The position numbers were made by a program, and so were the translations under genes. A DNA stretch of 39,413 nt. Source: Gammaproteobacteria bacterium (GTDB lineage Bacteria > Pseudomonadota > Gammaproteobacteria > SZUA-229). The DNA lies in assembly GCA_029882215.1 (NCBI GenBank), contig JAOULC010000028.1, forward strand, positions 1-39,413. The letters run 5' to 3'. Under the pieces are notes generated by a model. That model made no database searches, had not been told where the DNA came from, and saw only the letters and a program-made list of their open reading frames with translations. Shown here one piece after another: positions 5,685 through 14,405 of the stretch. Each line of letters starts with the position of its first letter. Position 1 is the stretch's first letter.

Positions 5685-7070
5685 TTAAGAATTCAGCTGT
5701 TCCTTTTGTTTTACCTGGATATCATATTTTTCTAACAGTGAGTATAGGGTGGGGCGTGTCACGCCAAGTAGCCGTGATGTTTGCGCTATTTTACCGTGGC
5801 AGTGATTAAGGGCTCTTAAGATGGCATGTCTTTCTGCATCAGCACGCACTTCTCTTAAATTAAATGGCATTAGCTCCTCGTTATTATCAGTGTCAAGATC
5901 GAGATCTTCAGCTGTAATATACTGTCCATTTGACATAATGACAGCGCGTTTGATTTTATTGACTAGCTCGCGTACATTACCCGGCCATGAGTGTTGCTCA
6001 ACGGCTTTTAAGGCTTCATCATTAAAGCGTTTCTTGGTTGTGCCCTGACTGGTTGCAATGGACTCTAATAATGCATTAGCTATGATGATTGAGTCACCTT
6101 GCCGCTCTCGCAGTGATGGTACATCGATAATGATTTCACTGAGCCGATAAAACAGATCTTCACGGAACAGACCTTCAGTTATCAGGTGGCGCAGATCTTG
6201 ATGTGTGGCACAGACAATCCTAACATCGATAGGGATTTCCTGTGTGCCACCGACGCGCTCAATTTTCCGTTCCTGCAGGAAACGAAGTAATTTTGCCTGT
6301 AAGGCCGGAGGCATGTCGCCAATTTCGTCAAGAAATAGTGTGCCTTTATCAGTGACTTCAATCTTTCCCTTTTTTAAGGCGTTGGCGCCGGTAAACGCGC
6401 CTTTTTCATGGCCAAATAGTTCGCTTTCAAGAAGGTTTTCCGGGATAGCAGCGCAGTTAATGGCAGAAAACGGTGCATCCGAGCGGTTACTGGCAGTATG
6501 TAGTGCTCTGGCGATTAATTCCTTGCCGGTACCTGTTTTGCCTAAGATGAGGGTAGAAATATCCGAAGGGGCTACTTTCTCAATCATTTGAATGATATTG
6601 AGCATTTCGGGGCTTGATGTAATGATTCCAAAGTTATTATTATGAGCTTTGCTTTTCTCATACTCGCGAGTTTTCTGCTCAAGTCTTGCCAGGATAAATG
6701 CGCGGTCTACTACAAATGATAGTGTATCGGCATCAACCGGTTTTTGATAAAAGTCATAGGCCCCCATTCCGATCGCTTTTACGGCGTTTTCTTTTTCTTC
6801 CCGACCGGTAATAATAATAATTTTCGTATTCGGAGCCAGAGTTAAGATTTCTTCCAGTAATTTAAACCCTTCAGCGGAGCCGCCAGGATCTGGTGGAAGG
6901 CCTAAGTCAAGTGTGACAACGGCAGGCTCATATCGTCGCAGTGCTGTTAACGCAGATTTATTATCGTGGGCGATGATAACTTCTATGTCATCATTGAAAC
7001 ACCACTTCATCTGGCTTTGCAGTCCAGGATCATCCTCGATTACTAAAAGTGTACGTTTTTCTACTTTCAC
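5685..7070 (-). CDS. prsR: PrsR-type sigma-54-dependent response regulator
   Basis: This is the response regulator of the PEP-CTERM/exosortase two-component system. The 461 residues comprise a receiver domain (acidic IEDD near 11-14, phospho-acceptor D55) and an AAA+ sigma-54 activation domain. The AAA+ domain has Walker A GKTGTGKE at 177-184, GAFTGA at 224-229 (the sigma-54 contact loop), Walker B LFLDE near 245-249 and the RxDLFYRL segment. A Fis-type helix-turn-helix closes the protein. The start is GTG at 7070-7068; its ribosome-binding site AGGAA lies inside the last codons of prsK, 3 nt away, so the two are coupled. The assignment rests on domain order plus the prsK, xrtA and prsT neighbours. 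Confidence 0.88.
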   Translation of the reverse strand: MKVEKRTLLVIEDDPGLQSQMKWCFNDDIEVIIAHDNKSALTALRRYEPAVVTLDLGLPPDPGGSAEGFKLLEEILTLAPNTKIIIITGREEKENAVKAIGMGAYDFYQKPVDADTLSFVVDRAFILARLEQKTREYEKSKAHNNNFGIITSSPEMLNIIQMIEKVAPSDISTLILGKTGTGKELIARALHTASNRSDAPFSAINCAAIPENLLESELFGHEKGAFTGANALKKGKIEVTDKGTLFLDEIGDMPPALQAKLLRFLQERKIERVGGTQEIPIDVRIVCATHQDLRHLITEGLFREDLFYRLSEIIIDVPSLRERQGDSIIIANALLESIATSQGTTKKRFNDEALKAVEQHSWPGNVRELVNKIKRAVIMSNGQYITAEDLDLDTDNNEELMPFNLREVRADAERHAILRALNHCHGKIAQTSRLLGVTRPTLYSLLEKYDIQVKQKEQLNS

Positions 7071-7073
7071 AAT

Positions 7074-9149
7074 TCATTCCTGCTTGTAAATCGGCAATGT
7101 TATGGTAAATGTTGTACCTTGGCCTAAATGGCTTTCAACACTAATGTCGCCTTCAGCAGCGCGTATGTATTGCCTGCACTGATAAACGCCTATGCCCATG
7201 CCTGATAGTCCTTTAGTACTGCTAAATGGCTTAAACAGACTGTTTTTAATAAATGACTGATCCATGCCGCATCCATTATCAATTATATTTATTAGAACAG
7301 TGTGGTTTTTTTTCTCTACCGCTATATTAATGTATCCATCATCAGATGTCGCTTCTTGTGCATTTTTTATGATATGAGTGATGGCAGAAAGAATTTGTTC
7401 CTGTGAAACATTAATAATTAACCTGTTAGATGGAAACTGTGTGATCTTAGGTACCGGCTTGTTGTTATTATGTTCCTGAATAAGACTCAATAATAGCTTT
7501 TCTAAATCAAGTTCATGGGTTTCATTTTTAGCGGTCTCGCGCTTTAATTGTTTTAGTAAACTTTGCATTTTACTGACACTGTGTTCGGTTGTTGAAATCA
7601 TGTCATCAATGAACGCGGGGTTGTTTTTATGCTGCTTTGCATTTTTACCTAGTAATGATAGCTGTGATACCACAGTCTTAATATCATGTATTACAAAAGC
7701 AGACATTTGGTTATAGGCTTCAAACTGTCTGGAGTTAGCAAGTGCCTCACTGTCCAGCATCTGGGCCAGTGCACTTGCTGCCTGATGACCAGATATCTTT
7801 AGAATATCGTAGTCTTCCCAGTTAAACTCTATATTAGCATGTGAGTGTGATAGTGTAATAAAGCCTACAAGACTTGTCTGGATGTTGAGAGGTAGAATGA
7901 GCCAGGCATTAGAGAGAGACAAAATAGTATTCGGTAGAACAAGTCCGGGGTAGTGCTTATTATCCTCTTTATATTCATCAATGTTAATGATCCAGTTTTT
8001 TTCCCGTAAATATAACAAAAAGTCCTGTTCGTCAATATTAGGCTGCAAGTGAGCCCAGTTAGCATGATAGTCTTCAGTGTATATATAAATACCACCTTCA
8101 TTCTTAAGCCATATTCCGCCACCTGTACTATTGACCATAGAACTGATCTGGCGCAGTGCCCGATAGGCTAATTTATCATCCTGATTTTGTATGAATAGTG
8201 CCTTGGTCATCGAAACCCATTCATGTCGATAGTCATAATGATAACGGAAGAAATGTCGGCTGATATAGACAATGAGTCTGGCTCTCATCTGCCGGGACAT
8301 AATCAGGATAAAAAATGCTAGGATCGAACCAATGAAAAAAATAGTTTGTAGTAAACTTCCCCATTCTCCGCCAGTGGCTTTGATATAGTAGCCTGCTGTC
8401 GCCATTAAGACGAGATATATGCCGGATATAGCGAGTGCGCCTGTATGAAAAACAACTCGCCTAGATACATTGAGTTCCAGGCGCCAGACGGGATTTCTTG
8501 AAATGGTAATAAATAACAGGGGAACAATAAAAATTTGAATAAATCCGCGTGATACTAATAGTGACTCTTCAATTTTATTAAATAATAAAGCGTCGCTAAA
8601 CATAAAAAAATCATAGGCAAACATACTGCCTGTAGCGAGACATAGAAACTTTATATTCCAAAGCCGGTCCCTGTGCGTGTTTCGCATGACTTGCTCAACA
8701 AGCGCGAGCCCCAGAATTGATACAGCTGTTAAACAGAGTAAATAGAATTTTGTACCATATATGAAACTAAGGCTTTCAACTGAAAAAAATGGCCGCGTGA
8801 TAGTTACTGAAAGCAAAACAACATTGATTGAAAATGCTGCAATTGTTAGCGAGAGTAAAATTTTATTTCTTGTAAGATTTTGATGGCTGGCGGTATATAG
8901 AACTGATAATAAAAGAGCTATCCAAGTTGCATATTTAATAATTTCGAGTGACTGATATACAACAACATCGAGTACGTCGTATTGTAGCTGAGTGGCAAGT
9001 ACCAGAAACCAGAAAGAAGTTGAAAAAGCAGCTAGTGCAATTAGTTTATTAGAAATACCAGTGGTGATGTTAGGTAATGAGCGAATAAAAAGCGCAAAGT
9101 AAAGAATGGCTGCAGAGTAATAACTGATTAAACTAATGCTTTGATCCAT
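7074..9149 (-). CDS. prsK: PrsK-type membrane sensor histidine kinase
   Basis: This is the partner kinase of PrsR, typical of exosortase A loci. The 691 residues start with about 290 residues of hydrophobic segments forming a multi-pass membrane domain. A cytoplasmic GAF-like region (about 310-465), a dimerisation helix with phospho-acceptor histidine in FVIHDIKT (H488) and a C-terminal HATPase domain follow. The HATPase domain has N-box NAQEA, G1 DNGCGMD and the G2-type GMGIGVYQCRQYI. The signal sensed is unknown. No strong ribosome-binding site precedes the ATG at 9149. A terminator-like hairpin at 9191-9219 separates it from the decayed gene upstream, so prsK-prsR is probably its own transcription unit. 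Confidence 0.88.
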   Translation of the reverse strand: MDQSISLISYYSAAILYFALFIRSLPNITTGISNKLIALAAFSTSFWFLVLATQLQYDVLDVVVYQSLEIIKYATWIALLLSVLYTASHQNLTRNKILLSLTIAAFSINVVLLSVTITRPFFSVESLSFIYGTKFYLLCLTAVSILGLALVEQVMRNTHRDRLWNIKFLCLATGSMFAYDFFMFSDALLFNKIEESLLVSRGFIQIFIVPLLFITISRNPVWRLELNVSRRVVFHTGALAISGIYLVLMATAGYYIKATGGEWGSLLQTIFFIGSILAFFILIMSRQMRARLIVYISRHFFRYHYDYRHEWVSMTKALFIQNQDDKLAYRALRQISSMVNSTGGGIWLKNEGGIYIYTEDYHANWAHLQPNIDEQDFLLYLREKNWIINIDEYKEDNKHYPGLVLPNTILSLSNAWLILPLNIQTSLVGFITLSHSHANIEFNWEDYDILKISGHQAASALAQMLDSEALANSRQFEAYNQMSAFVIHDIKTVVSQLSLLGKNAKQHKNNPAFIDDMISTTEHSVSKMQSLLKQLKRETAKNETHELDLEKLLLSLIQEHNNNKPVPKITQFPSNRLIINVSQEQILSAITHIIKNAQEATSDDGYINIAVEKKNHTVLINIIDNGCGMDQSFIKNSLFKPFSSTKGLSGMGIGVYQCRQYIRAAEGDISVESHLGQGTTFTITLPIYKQE

Positions 9150-9190
9150 AGGTTATCTAATTGTTATTGTTCTATTGTGGCAATTATAAC

Positions 9191-9219
9191 AAAAAAACGC
9201 TATAGAGAGCGGTTTTTTT
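9191..9219 (-). terminator. Intrinsic terminator between the decayed PEP-CTERM gene and prsK
   Basis: An A7 run, CGCT (9198-9201), a six-base loop and AGCG (9208-9211), then a bulged G and T7. Read on the minus strand it ends in seven T, 14 nt beyond the 3' end of the decayed reading frame at 9233. A terminator here suggests that the decayed gene once had its own transcript. Confidence 0.6.
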
Positions 9220-9232
9220 GGCTAATTAAATA

Positions 9233-9846
9233 TCAAGATTTAAGACTATGATTGGAGAAAGTTAAACCTAGTAAACCAAGACCAATAAAAAAAGATCGAT
9301 GGCACTGATACTGGGTTTACAGATTCTATCGGGACTACAAAGTCGTTATTGTCATTGTTGCCACTTACAATATCTTCTCAGTCCAGAATATACATACTGG
9401 CTGATTACGTACCAGGACTGGAATTACCTATTTGGATCGTATCATCAACCCACTGAACTGCAACCATATGGCCGGCACTATCAAAATTCAGATTAGTGTA
9501 TGAGTAAAACGTTCTGAGTTGGTTCCGTGATTGACGTTGGATATATTGTTTGAAAAGAAAGTACCAGTAGCAGAAAGGTTAAGTTAACTTCATCTGTAGC
9601 TAATATGGCCACAAGAATTATGTCGCCATTGCTATCTGAACCGATAAAAGTTCAATGCTACGATCAGTTGTAAGATCATATATTTAAACGTTTGGGAACT
9701 AGCATTACAGCTAATTCGATGACAATGTTATTAAAAGAACTGCTAATTTTCCCAAAAGAATCACTTGAATCTGTTGACTGGTCTGTTTCAGCGGTTACGA
9801 TACTTGGGCCAGTCGTTGTAATGTTCTCTATTATTTTTTGAATCAT
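9233..9846 (-). pseudogene. Decayed PEP-CTERM-tailed surface protein gene
   Basis: No intact frame exists, but minus-strand pieces read as one former protein. From about 9570 to 9288 one frame gives NFDSAGHMVAVQWVDDTIQ, then TAA at 9407-9405, then SASMYILD, TGA at 9380-9378, and EDIVSGNNDNNDFVVPIE followed by VNPVSVPSIFF. The acidic E-D...G-N-N-D-N-N-D pattern resembles the end of DUF4114-like surface proteins. At the T7 run (9287-9293) the frame shifts. The next frame gives IGLGLLGLTFSNHSLKS and a stop at 9233: a hydrophobic, glycine-rich segment with a short polar tail, as in PEP-CTERM sorting signals. Upstream, other frames give GSDSNGDIILVAILATDE and, at 9846-9676, an open 56-codon piece starting MIQKIIENITTTG. 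No signal peptide was found. Location among xrtA, prsT and prsK supports a former exosortase substrate. Confidence 0.6.
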
Positions 9847-9867: not shown

Positions 9868-9884
9868 ACACGCAGAATGCGTGT
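9868..9884. repeat. Short inverted repeat upstream of the decayed gene
   Basis: ACACGC (9868-9873), loop AGAAT, GCGTGT (9879-9884). It lies 22 nt upstream, in minus-strand sense, of the ATG at 9846. It could be an operator or a leader hairpin; no function is shown. The rest of 9885-10028 is AT-rich with no gene seen. Confidence 0.35.
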
Positions 9885-10028
9885 CATTATTATCTTTTCT
9901 TTTTTCAATAACCTACATTTATTTTGAATAAAATTAACTTGCTTTTCTTAAAACACAACAATAGCAAGTCAGATCGATTAAGAGTATTAGAAAAATAATA
10001 ATATAGAATATATAGTAAAGAATGATTG

Positions 10029-10064
10029 CTAATCGACAGTATTGAATTAAATACTGTCGATTAG
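10029..10064. repeat. Perfect 15-bp inverted repeat downstream of prsT
   Basis: CTAATCGACAGTATT at 10029-10043 and its exact reverse complement at 10050-10064 flank a 6-nt loop (GAATTA). It lies 83 nt beyond the prsT stop. Neither strand has a T-run after it, so it is not a standard intrinsic terminator. It may stabilise the prsT mRNA 3' end, act as a factor-dependent stop, or be a binding site upstream of the decayed gene. Confidence 0.75.
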
Positions 10065-10105
10065 TGTGTGCTTTTATCAGCAATGAATATGAAGTGTATA
10101 TTAAG

Positions 10106-10146: not shown

Positions 10147-12891
10147 CTACTGACTTCTTAGCTGGTTGGCCTCGAGCATATTACCTGAATCTGCTAATGC
10201 TTTTATTAAGTGTTGCTTGATTATATCTGAAGATGTTGAGCTGTATGCATGCTTTAGTAGTGGGATGCCTTTCTCATAGTTCTTATGCTGTTCTGTATAT
10301 ATTAAACCAAGTGTATCCTGAATAGCAGGGCTGTCAGGCAGGTTTAGAAGGGCTAATTTTGCAGTCTCAAGAGCTCGTTTATCATCATTCTCTAGGTAGC
10401 AGTTAGCTAAATTGTTAAGGATGATGGCATTATTTGGGAACTTTATAAGTTGAGATTCAAGCACCGTCTGTGCCTTTTTGATGAGGTTTTCGTTCTGCAA
10501 TGCTAGTGAATATGACATTTGAATCTTTAAGTCGTCTTTGTTTTCAAGTGCTAATTCATCCCATGCGAAAAGGGCAGTGTCATTTTTATTTGAGAGTTTA
10601 GAGGTTAATAAAATCTTATTAGCTAACGTTATATTTTTACTTTTGTTCCATGCCTGCTGTAGGCTTGCTAGTGCATCAATATAGTCTTTAGCTTGTAAGT
10701 ATAGGTCGGCCTCTAATTCGTGAGGAAAATGTGAGTCAGGAGTGAGGTGCTTGAGTAAGTCAATTGACTTCAGAGCAGTTGCTGAATCATTTTTACTAAT
10801 ACTAATTTTCGCCATTAGTATTTGAGCAGGTATATAGTCATTTTGGATCGATAAGGCCCTGGTTGTGTAATCTATAGCCTTGTTCAAGTCTTTTTTCGCA
10901 AGGTACAGGTGTCCCAGATGTGAGTATGCCTCAGGGTCTTTTGGTGCGAGAGAGGCCAGTAATAAATAGGTAGCAACGGCTTGCTTAATATCGTTTTTAG
11001 CTAGTAGTGCTTTTGCTTTTAAAAAGTATGCATGGGTATTTTTGTTATCTAACTTTGTTATATCATCAATAATAAAAAGGCTCTTGTCTGGCTGTTTGGT
11101 GCTGAGGTAGAGTTGAGCTAAAATAATACGAGGATTAATGGAGGACGGGTGCTTGTCGTTTATTGTTTCTAGTACTTTTGTTGCTTGATCAGCTTTTTTA
11201 CTGTTAATTGAAAGTTTAAAGAGTAGGCTTAATGCTTTCAAATTTTCAGGGTGCTTTCCGAGTACAAGGCTGAGTCGTTCAAATGCCTTATCTATTTTAT
11301 TATCCTGGATATCAAATCTAATGATATTCAAGTTTGAAAATAAATCATAAGGCGCTATTGCAAGTGATTTTAATAATTGTATTTTCGCTTTTTCATAGTT
11401 ATTTGTTTCAAGTTCGATAGAGGTCGATACGTTAAGGGGTGTTATATCATTAGGTGATTGATTTAACCATTTATTTACAAAATCACGTGCATTTTTGAAA
11501 TCTTTTTTTATTGTGTAAGAACTAACCATTGCTAACTTAGCATATTTTGAATTTGGCTTGATCTTAAGAGCTGTGGTGGCTGATTTCAATGCGTTTACGG
11601 TATCATTATTTAATAGGTGTGCTCTGGCAAGGTGAGTGTGGTAAAGGGAGTTATTTCTATTTAGTTTAATAGCTTTTTTTAATTCTATAATACTCCTTGT
11701 TGCATCTTTAGATGCCAGATATGCAAATCCAAGTAGGGCATGTAGATCAGCATCGTCTTTTGTGTGTAGCATTACCTCGTTTATGATTTCAATAGCGTCA
11801 TCGATTTTATTAAGTTTTATTTTTGTTAAGGCCAGAGTTTTCTTGCTTCGTAACGGACTGTTTTCATCATTGGCGAATTCGCTTAGGTAGTCTTCAGCCT
11901 GAGTGTAGTCCCCTTTTTCATAGTTTATTAATCCAAGCATTATACCGCTTGATTTATGTTTAGGAGCCTGCTTTAGTATATCTTGAAAGGCTTTTTCGGC
12001 TGCATTTAGATCGCCATGATTAGAAATAAGACTGAAAGCTTCCTTGACTGATGCCTGAATTAGTCCCGGGCGTGATTTTGCAAGATAGTTGCTATAGGTG
12101 AATGACTCTTCAATTTTACCCTGAGCAACAAGCGCTTTAGCAAGCATATTGATGGCAGAGTATTTGTCCGCTGTTAAAATGTCGTATCTTTCAAGTTCAA
12201 TCATGGATCTGGAGAGAATGTTCTCTGCATCTACATATCTCTTTTGTACCATAAATACTCGAGCCTGCCATAGCATGGCGTTTATATTGGTAGGAGCGGT
12301 TTCTATTGCTAGAGTGGTGTATTTATTTGTGTCGTCAATTTGCTGTAAAATTAAAGAGGTTCTGGCGGCACCAATAATGGCATCAACGTTATCGCTGTTT
12401 GATTTTATGGCTTTCATATACCATCTTTTAGCTTCATTATGTTTGCCTGATATTAATAACAAATCGGCATTTAATTTTTCGTATTCACTTTTGTCATTGA
12501 TGCCTTCAGGGTTTATGTTGTCTAAGGTGCTTTGTGCCGAAAATCGTTTTCCTTGAAGGATTAGTGCCTTGGTAAGCAAGAGTTTTAAGTTTTCATTTTC
12601 TTTATCAAGGTCAATTGCTTTGTTAATTAGACTGTTTGCAGTGCTTCCTTCATTTAGTTTTAATAGTACGGTAGACATTAAAGTAAGCGCTTCGGTGTTG
12701 TCTGGTTCGAGCTGAAGTGCGTTCTTTCCCTCTATAATGCTGGCCTTAAATGATCCCTGTTTAAGGTAGAGCTGGGCAAGATCAAGGTGATCCTGTACTT
12801 TGATCTCTGGCTTATTATCACCGCACGAAGATAAGACAAATAATAGACATATGAGTATTGTTCTTATGCAATTTCTGTAGCTTGCTTTCAT
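10147..12891 (-). CDS. prsT: PrsT-type TPR lipoprotein of the exosortase A system
   Basis: A 914-residue tetratricopeptide protein. The N-terminus is a lipoprotein signal: a basic start, a hydrophobic stretch and the lipobox LSSC with lipidated C23. Position +2 is glycine, so an outer-membrane location is likely. The rest is a long series of TPR helices; repeats such as AKKDLNKAIDYTTRAL and EKGDYTQAEDYLSEF recur to the end. PrsT proteins occur next to exosortase A genes in PEP-CTERM/exopolysaccharide loci, and their exact role is not settled. It follows xrtA by 14 nt, with AAGGGA before the ATG, so the two are probably co-transcribed. The gene is AT-rich and heavy in Lys and Asn compared with the neighbouring acs gene. 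Confidence 0.87.
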   Translation of the reverse strand: MKASYRNCIRTILICLLFVLSSCGDNKPEIKVQDHLDLAQLYLKQGSFKASIIEGKNALQLEPDNTEALTLMSTVLLKLNEGSTANSLINKAIDLDKENENLKLLLTKALILQGKRFSAQSTLDNINPEGINDKSEYEKLNADLLLISGKHNEAKRWYMKAIKSNSDNVDAIIGAARTSLILQQIDDTNKYTTLAIETAPTNINAMLWQARVFMVQKRYVDAENILSRSMIELERYDILTADKYSAINMLAKALVAQGKIEESFTYSNYLAKSRPGLIQASVKEAFSLISNHGDLNAAEKAFQDILKQAPKHKSSGIMLGLINYEKGDYTQAEDYLSEFANDENSPLRSKKTLALTKIKLNKIDDAIEIINEVMLHTKDDADLHALLGFAYLASKDATRSIIELKKAIKLNRNNSLYHTHLARAHLLNNDTVNALKSATTALKIKPNSKYAKLAMVSSYTIKKDFKNARDFVNKWLNQSPNDITPLNVSTSIELETNNYEKAKIQLLKSLAIAPYDLFSNLNIIRFDIQDNKIDKAFERLSLVLGKHPENLKALSLLFKLSINSKKADQATKVLETINDKHPSSINPRIILAQLYLSTKQPDKSLFIIDDITKLDNKNTHAYFLKAKALLAKNDIKQAVATYLLLASLAPKDPEAYSHLGHLYLAKKDLNKAIDYTTRALSIQNDYIPAQILMAKISISKNDSATALKSIDLLKHLTPDSHFPHELEADLYLQAKDYIDALASLQQAWNKSKNITLANKILLTSKLSNKNDTALFAWDELALENKDDLKIQMSYSLALQNENLIKKAQTVLESQLIKFPNNAIILNNLANCYLENDDKRALETAKLALLNLPDSPAIQDTLGLIYTEQHKNYEKGIPLLKHAYSSTSSDIIKQHLIKALADSGNMLEANQLRSQ

Positions 12892-12905: not shown

Positions 12906-14405
12906 TTAATTTGTAACTGAACTAATAATATTTCTTTTATGTTTTTTTAAGAAATATTTTAATTGTTTTCTTTTATTTTCACATCTTTCTGTACATTCGG
13001 AACTTAATGAAATCAAGGATGATGATGTGCTTCCTTTAATAAGCTCCTGTAGGTAAAGCAGTTTCGCGGCGCCACGACTGGTAGTGTTTTTGTTGTTGAC
13101 ATGATACCAGTGCCATACGATACGATCGTTTTTCTCCTTGGTCGAAATGATGCTCTCGATAATTTTAAAATCATCAATTAATATGACTCGAGTTGATTTT
13201 AAATGGTGATTATCTGTAATTGTATTTAACTCATTGATCAATTCATTGTCCTGGGTTTGTTTTCCATAGTAATAAATATGCAAAGCTATATCTGATACGT
13301 CACCCGAGCCAACGTAAATAACGTTATTCTCCAGGCTGGCTCCTTTATAGTTCGGATGCCATTTATTAAAATGTATAGGTCCTAGCCAGGGAGATGCTGC
13401 CTTAGGTGTTGTAAGGGTTGTTAAAGCGGTCAGTTTTTTGTTATTGATATAATGGTTTGAAGCTGCTGCAGTGGCTAGTAATGCTAAAGTAAGGATTATA
13501 AAAATATTTTGCTTTTGTATTGTTGTTTTTTTGGCTGTTGACGGGGTCAATGCCGGTGATGGTTTCTCGTGTTTTGTGATTTTTTGTCCAATATAAAACA
13601 GCGGAATTAAACTTACGCCATACAAAATCCAGCCGAAGGTATCATGGTCACTTACTAAAGGACTTTGCATATTACTATAATGTCCAATTAAGATGATTAT
13701 ATATATTCGTATCCAGTTTAGTAAGATAGGGAATAGTAGTGATAAAACTAAAAAAAGAATGCTTGAAGAGTATCTTGTAAAGTTTACCAGTGAGAAATAA
13801 CTACAAAGTGCAATAGTGACAACGAGGTAGCGTATGCCGCTACAACCTCCTTCGATCACGAATGTTCCGCCAGGTATGGTTACCTGTGTTCCTTGAATAA
13901 AAGTAGGAATTCCGACCAGATTAAGTGAAAATTCATTAACTGTAACAGCGAGAGTTTGTAAAGTCGGGATTAGTAAGCTCCATGCAGGGACTGCAAGCAT
14001 CAGCAGTAATAATGGAGCAATAATTGGTTTGCTTGCCTTAAATCCTATAATGCAGCTGTAGGAGAAAATAAATATAGCTGGCAATAGCGTTAGTTCGACG
14101 GTTTTCGTATCCGTTACTGATGCTAGTAACCAGATAACCAGAATAATGGCTAAAGGGATCAGTAAAGCCGGAGCCGGGATGATGGAAATTCCGGAAAGTT
14201 TTTTATTTTGCTGGGAAATTAAATAGAATGTTATCAGTGGAATAATAAAGCCATGAGAGTAGGTTTTATTATTATTCCAGATTGCGACCAGATCGCTGGC
14301 ACTCTTCCAGTACAGTGTTATAAATATAATAAATAATGCTGCACCAGCCAGAAGGGCTGGTGCAGGCACCGTTATTTGAAAATCCTTTTTCATGTTATCA
14401 AGCAT
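12906..14405 (-). CDS. xrtA: Exosortase A fused to an EpsI-like domain
   Basis: Exosortase A is a polytopic inner-membrane transpeptidase-like enzyme that processes proteins ending in a PEP-CTERM tail. The 499-residue product has about 275 residues of multi-pass membrane domain with the expected catalytic triad: cysteine in EGGCSGIR (C188), arginine in LNWIRIY (R233) and histidine in SDHDTFGW (H254). After a linker and another hydrophobic segment near 300-315 comes a soluble domain of about 180 residues at the position of the EpsI/DUF3485 domain found fused to or beside exosortases. It contains NKWHPNYKGASL and IVWHWYHVN. The enzyme looks intact. It follows acs by 7 nt and precedes prsT by 14 nt. 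Confidence 0.93.
   Translation of the reverse strand: MLDNMKKDFQITVPAPALLAGAALFIIFITLYWKSASDLVAIWNNNKTYSHGFIIPLITFYLISQQNKKLSGISIIPAPALLIPLAIILVIWLLASVTDTKTVELTLLPAIFIFSYSCIIGFKASKPIIAPLLLLMLAVPAWSLLIPTLQTLAVTVNEFSLNLVGIPTFIQGTQVTIPGGTFVIEGGCSGIRYLVVTIALCSYFSLVNFTRYSSSILFLVLSLLFPILLNWIRIYIIILIGHYSNMQSPLVSDHDTFGWILYGVSLIPLFYIGQKITKHEKPSPALTPSTAKKTTIQKQNIFIILTLALLATAAASNHYINNKKLTALTTLTTPKAASPWLGPIHFNKWHPNYKGASLENNVIYVGSGDVSDIALHIYYYGKQTQDNELINELNTITDNHHLKSTRVILIDDFKIIESIISTKEKNDRIVWHWYHVNNKNTTSRGAAKLLYLQELIKGSTSSSLISLSSECTERCENKRKQLKYFLKKHKRNIISSVTN

Follow-up and report, generated by a model that had tools for sequence, protein, structure and literature searches.

Remains of a DUF4114-type PEP-CTERM gene beside prsT in an otherwise intact exosortase A locus

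The stretch of DNA considered here (the window, 39,413 nucleotides, from an assembled bin of a gammaproteobacterium) carries on its minus strand, in this order, dksA, gluQRS, acs, xrtA, prsT, a gap, prsK and prsR (Table 1). The sorting machinery of this locus had been predicted to be intact. Since all four exosortase-system genes pass their NCBIfam cut-offs (TIGR03109, TIGR02917, TIGR02916 and TIGR02915) and XrtA keeps its CSGIR motif, this holds as far as sequence can tell. The CSGIR motif, at Cys188, marks the active-site region of XrtA, and prsT, prsK and prsR are unbroken, with model matches of nearly full length. A hairpin of 17 base pairs (TGCTAATCGACAGTATT...) follows prsT at window positions 10027-10066 and is possibly the prsT terminator or a binding site.

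Table 1. Features of the exosortase locus, including the prsT-prsK gap (window coordinates).
Feature	Position	Strand	Basis or remark
prsR, sigma-54-interacting response regulator, intact	5685..7070	-	TIGR02915 666.3 bits, cut-off 502.6
prsK, histidine kinase, intact	7074..9149	-	TIGR02916 700.6 bits, cut-off 300
Weakened intrinsic terminator between pseudogene and prsK	9184..9224	-	-9.4 kcal/mol
Decayed DUF4114-type PEP-CTERM gene (pseudogene)	9233..9846	-	Recognisable part starts at 9843 and ends with the stop 9235-9233; frameshift-tolerant alignment to the G273 protein
Glycine-rich hydrophobic C-terminal helix remnant IGLGLLGLTFSNHSLKS	9236..9286	-	Frame differs from that of the body
PEP box position, reads V-S-V-P-S	9297..9311	-	Sequence; aligned to VPEPA (G273), VSEPA (G157) and VSAPA (G117)
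DUF4114 (PF13448) remnant with both in-frame stops inside	9324..9548	-	22.2 bits (cut-off 27), E 6.6e-4
In-frame TGA	9378..9380	-	Opposite Trp194 of G273
In-frame TAA	9405..9407	-	Opposite Trp185 of G273
Possible decayed sigma-54 (-24/-12) element TGACACGCATTCTGCG	9871..9886	-	Score 17.5 of 22; not above chance
prsT, TPR protein, intact	10147..12891	-	TIGR02917 454.4 bits, cut-off 312.2
xrtA, exosortase A with EpsI-like C-terminal domain, intact	12906..14405	-	TIGR03109 229.8 bits, cut-off 208; TIGR02914 54.1, cut-off 42.8

The gap between prsT and prsK would probably be left empty by an annotation pipeline. The original prediction had described protein-like pieces on its minus strand, with an acidic motif, a TAA and a TGA, a frame change and a hydrophobic tail. 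Three-frame translation finds all of these, and the span that had been given (9233-9846) nearly coincides with the recognisable one. Frame 1 reads ...ILD, a stop and EDIVSGNNDNNDFVVPIESVNPVSVPSIFF; after the frame change the reading continues as IGLGLLGLTFSNHSLKS and ends at the TGA at 9235-9233. This hydrophobic segment follows the PEP box position in another frame, and its end is weakly basic.

A match can look better than it is when reading frames are picked by hand. The DNA of the gap was therefore aligned directly to intact proteins with frameshifts freely allowed, and dinucleotide-shuffled DNA given the same treatment served as the control. Three intact proteins were found to be homologous, in the genomes G273, G117 and G157, which represent other families of the class Gammaproteobacteria. 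Against the G273 protein (243 residues), the gap scored 172, where 150 shuffles had a mean of 28.6 and a maximum of 39; the opposite strand scored 27 and the reversed protein 34. Bases 9843 to 9239 are aligned with residues 30-243, and 77 of the 214 columns are identical. The G117 protein scored 100 (shuffle maximum 40) and the G157 protein 101 over 75 columns (shuffle maximum 39). An intact homologue in a related strain that aligns across the frame breaks had been named as support for the prediction; G273 and G117 provide such an alignment, as does G157 over its whole length at a lower frameshift penalty, none of them being a related strain.

Protein-like pieces could also arise by chance from plain intergenic DNA, since the tails of PEP-CTERM proteins are short, low-complexity sequences. 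When the remnant was compared with four unrelated PEP-CTERM proteins from the genus (three in the bin, one in G002), similarity was weak, and one score out of four (the tail against G002, 44) lay above all 20 shuffles. Chance is refuted, however, by the shuffles for the three homologues, whose maxima of 39, 40 and 39 stand against 172, 100 and 101. A chain score based on codon usage, for which 15 window genes were the training set, points the same way: on the minus strand it reaches 9.3, above the maximum of 8.5 in 100 shuffles, and on the plus strand 6.8 against a shuffle maximum of 9.6. We consider chance to have virtually no probability.

A read-through query made from the pieces found distant intact proteins, with matches in 11 of 96 relatives at E <= 0.1. 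Across the class, five out of 369 genomes matched at E <= 0.001, and the best was G273 (E 3.8e-13); both counts include the own genome. When PF13448 was run against the own bin at E <= 0.1, the sole match was the gap remnant itself, under the cut-off and with one TGA and one TAA inside. By this match, the acidic motif is probably the DUF4114 signature. When 58 genomes were searched with the nucleotide sequence of the gap, the window matched and none of the other 57 did. A protein search of a 54-genome set of the order (E <= 1e-4) yielded no close intact orthologue, with G067 as the sole match besides the own genome, over 48 residues. No match was obtained by tblastn against a plasmid collection, nor with the G273 protein in a PDB sequence search at E <= 1.

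A search of the tail with a PEP-CTERM model had been proposed as a check. Neither PF07589 nor TIGR02595 scores the gap in searches of the own genome, or the read-through protein. Because the sorting-signal models give no score, the PEP-CTERM assignment rests on homology and position. The THxN family (NF038125, 15.7 bits, cut-off 85) was considered as well and dropped, since it matches the shared C-terminal tail alone and the DUF4114 homologues explain the body.

The intact homologues themselves combine the two domains to varying degrees. The G273 protein (L156:1186-1917) passes both PF07589 (28.6 bits, cut-off 20.7) and PF13448 (29.1, cut-off 27). That of G117 passes PF07589 (24.0, cut-off 20.7) and stays below the cut-off for PF13448 (23.8, cut-off 27). 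The G157 protein falls below both (PF07589 18.5, PF13448 22.2) and passes TIGR02595 (18.1, cut-off 16). In G273, the gene has prsT (TIGR02917, 576.3 bits) on one side and the XrtA-system export gene (TIGR03027) on the other, and xrtA (TIGR03109, 306.9) is further down. The G117 gene is likewise flanked by prsT (709.4), which is on the opposite strand, and by the export gene (TIGR03027, 239.5); a second prsT, prsR and prsK lie beyond. The G157 gene, on an 11-kb contig, is not beside prsT. Descent of the remnant from a local XrtA target is therefore supported by gene position in two of the three. The loci differ in what comes next: prsK and prsR follow the remnant in the window, while the export gene TIGR03027 takes that place in G273 and G117. 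The prsT genes of G117 (L182:10306-15981; TIGR02917, 709.4 and 805.3 bits) form a tandem pair, with prsR on one side and the DUF4114-PEP-CTERM gene on the other.

DUF4114 proteins of the same family as the window, in G067, G014, G064, G027 and G060, pass the PF13448 cut-off and then carry a sorting-like tail. They are built differently from the remnant, with tails that read VPVPA or VPIPA, and the three of the five that were aligned to it match in the C-terminal part only: G067 (69, maximum of 100 shuffles 40), G014 (66, maximum 41) and G060 (54, maximum 48).

The alignment to G273 reveals the extent of the damage. The frame changes six times, near 9703, 9683, 9648, 9583, 9512 and 9294-9283, and these six break sites and two stops leave the ancestral product without an open frame. 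An extra N-terminal piece, from 9843 to about 9703, aligns as well. G157 has tryptophan at both stop positions, as does G273, and G117 at neither. The V-S-V-P reading at the PEP box position is not by itself counted as a lesion, because G157 reads VSEP and G117 VSAP there. No remnant of a signal peptide could be detected, the N-terminal region scoring 18-19 against shuffle means of 18.6-20.5 with the first 45 residues of the three homologues. The missing signal peptide is what is expected of a decayed gene, and the present sequence is not a functional PEP-CTERM member. It is conceivable that part of the gene, for instance the ORF of 56 residues at 9846-9676, still yields a peptide with a separate function, and an ATG-started frame of 56 codons is indeed present. 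However, this ORF lacks the PEP-CTERM tail, breaks off midway through the ancestral body, and has one chance Pfam match far below the cut-off and no NCBIfam match, which makes such a function exceedingly improbable.

A terminator had been predicted behind the stop of the tail, and a hairpin with a T run is present there on the minus strand. Its folding has a z of -3.9, one of 200 shuffles folding equally well, and a fixed-pattern hairpin scan did not list it. The folding energies of the corresponding terminators are -16.2 and -19.1 kcal/mol in two congeneric loci with an intact gene, against -9.4 in the window and -3.9 where the gene is absent.

Upstream of the pseudogene, a sigma-54 remnant was sought and rejected, being not above chance. 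The sigma-54 consensus was used for scoring, with weights of our own choice, and the top score in the window gap (18) lies inside the gene body and is equalled in 8% of 60 shuffles. Sigma-54-like sites do precede the PEP-CTERM genes in C95, G002 and C76, where none of 60 shuffles attains the best score; for C95, an inner ATG (L040:12163) was taken as the start. The corresponding values are 2% of shuffles for G273, a less clear 10% for C39, and 37% for G001.

The place between prsT and prsK can be followed in three congeneric loci. Two hold an intact, different PEP-CTERM gene: C95, a contig of the same bin, has an ORF of 201 codons (L040:12106-12711), and G002 (MAG CSMAG_304) one of 180 codons (L042:5799-6341). 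These genes share the slot and the build of the terminator with the window, but they have no DUF4114 match and their bodies are not recognisably homologous to the remnant. In G001 (MAG 8_1_Jan_SF_Bin54), the slot is reduced to 224 bases with no gene. A search of that gap for a residual PEP-CTERM gene gave scores of 25-32, and one of five comparisons (G157, 32) was one point above the maximum of 60 shuffles, which was taken as chance. G003 was left unplaced because pnp is absent from its matches; S1-domain matches alone were found, and the syntenic place was not. This genome of the same genus is listed as 97% complete; pnp may be missing from the assembly.

More widely, an ORF with PEP near its end stands beside prsT in four of ten loci examined (C95, G002, G012 and G024). 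A PrsK search of the genome contig collection returned 80 loci, and ORFs were viewed in two more distant ones (L052 and L054), whose lists contain no PEP-CTERM gene directly upstream of prsK; another two (L050 and L051) served to identify G002 and G001 through sequence in common. The same search of viral contigs found none.

The bin also holds candidates for other targets, which had been predicted to exist elsewhere in the genome. Three proteins (on C95, C39 and C76) pass the PF07589 cut-off and five pass that of TIGR02595, two of them weakly; the PF07589 matches in the congeners number three in G001, three in G002 and one in G003. The prediction is thus borne out for the assembly, with the caveat that the assembly probably mixes two congeners. 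A second-copy search within the bin, which covered C95 and 13 other stretches, found syntenic second copies on C95 for 15 of 32 tested window proteins, over about 23 kb (12-23232). These are the leftmost 15, up to guaA, and include pnp, prsR, prsK, prsT, xrtA, acs, gluQRS, dksA, xseA, guaB and guaA. For seven of eight genes compared (dksA, gluQRS, acs, prsT, prsK, prsR and pnp), the C95 copy is nearer to G001 than to the window; the exception is xrtA (46% against 47%). The listed contamination of the bin is 4.64%, and the simplest reading is probably that two congeneric species share one bin. The sole TIGR03027 export gene of the bin is on C95. In a mixed bin, this gene and the C95 target may belong to the other species.

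The same circumstance bears on whether the gene might be intact in the organism, its breaks being indel errors of sequencing or assembly. Every frame-break mark is of the same sense, several are near T runs, and the probably mixed bin makes misassembly conceivable. Nevertheless, no break is seen in prsT, prsK or prsR, the long genes on either side, and indel errors alone do not explain the two stops, the weakened terminator or the loss of the signal peptide. Furthermore, the identity of the remnant to G273 is below the 42-56% found among the three intact homologues, two measures that differ somewhat because gap columns are left out of the latter. An artefact is very unlikely on this evidence.

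The case for a pseudogene is carried by homology, position, the lesions in the assembly and the intact neighbours. We estimate at roughly 94% the probability that 9846-9233 on the minus strand is a pseudogene, whose ancestor was a secreted, C-terminally sorted PEP-CTERM protein of the DUF4114 type encoded beside prsT, in the midst of intact machinery. That the wreck is real and recognisable is well supported, and so is its interpretation as ordinary decay of a known kind of protein, which calls for no new type of system.

An exosortase locus can therefore outlive its own local target. Within one genus, four related loci are found at different stages (two intact, one decayed and one empty), which opens target turnover, and any link to xrtA and prsT divergence, to comparative study. 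Among these loci, xrtA and prsT are 44-56% identical, and prsK, prsR, pnp, acs and dksA 78-97%; gluQRS also diverges fast (61-70%). The wider pattern of varied slot contents and fast-changing xrtA and prsT, in four loci, is suggestive. Tentatively, the place beside prsT might be a revolving substrate slot in the genus, in which the target differs from locus to locus, with two different intact genes, one dead and one gone, but we hold this to be rather doubtful. If true, the exosortase, the TPR protein and the local target would be under linked, fast-changing selection.

By analogy with published systems, the ancestral protein would have begun with a signal peptide at the N-terminus, followed by a body with DUF4114 at its end, and exosortase A would have recognised the PEP-type box and hydrophobic helix that came last. 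PrsK and PrsR, together with sigma-54, might have switched the gene on; XrtA would then have cut off the C-terminal tail, and the mature protein may have joined the exopolysaccharide layer. The acidic DUF4114 motif is probably Ca2+-binding. With six frame breaks, two stops and no recognisable signal peptide, such a product would no longer be possible. As the genes for the exosortase, the regulators and the TPR protein show no damage, the machinery presumably serves PEP-CTERM proteins encoded elsewhere, and selection on this single target may have been relaxed.

A search of an open-licence library found no paper on DUF4114 combined with PEP-CTERM. The 2006 paper in which the system was described (PMC1569441) pictures PEP-CTERM proteins as having a signal peptide and, at the C-terminus, a sorting signal that EpsH/exosortase reads. 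It gives a sigma-54-type site upstream of 99 PEP-CTERM genes among 167 from proteobacteria, and names PrsK, PrsR and PrsT as associated proteins. For DUF4114, it was proposed in the case of Myxococcus PilY1.1 that the domain acts on binding Ca2+ and binds exopolysaccharide (PMC9109919). A close parallel is pepA of Aquincola tertiaricarbonis RN12, described in PMC9850573 as a PEP-CTERM gene beside prsT that is RpoN-dependent and involved in flocculation. Its overexpression in an rpoN1 mutant restored flocculation and raised bound exopolysaccharide, and the authors suspected other PEP-CTERM proteins of masking the effect of pepA (PMC9850573). Based on these three sources (PMC1569441, PMC9850573 and PMC9109919), the lost protein may have been a Ca2+-dependent surface protein tied to exopolysaccharide. 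Like the window gene, pepA directly adjoins prsT, with a putative terminator between the two; unlike it, pepA is upstream of prsT and functional, and the likeness between the two genes is one of position and, presumably, of regulation (PMC9850573).
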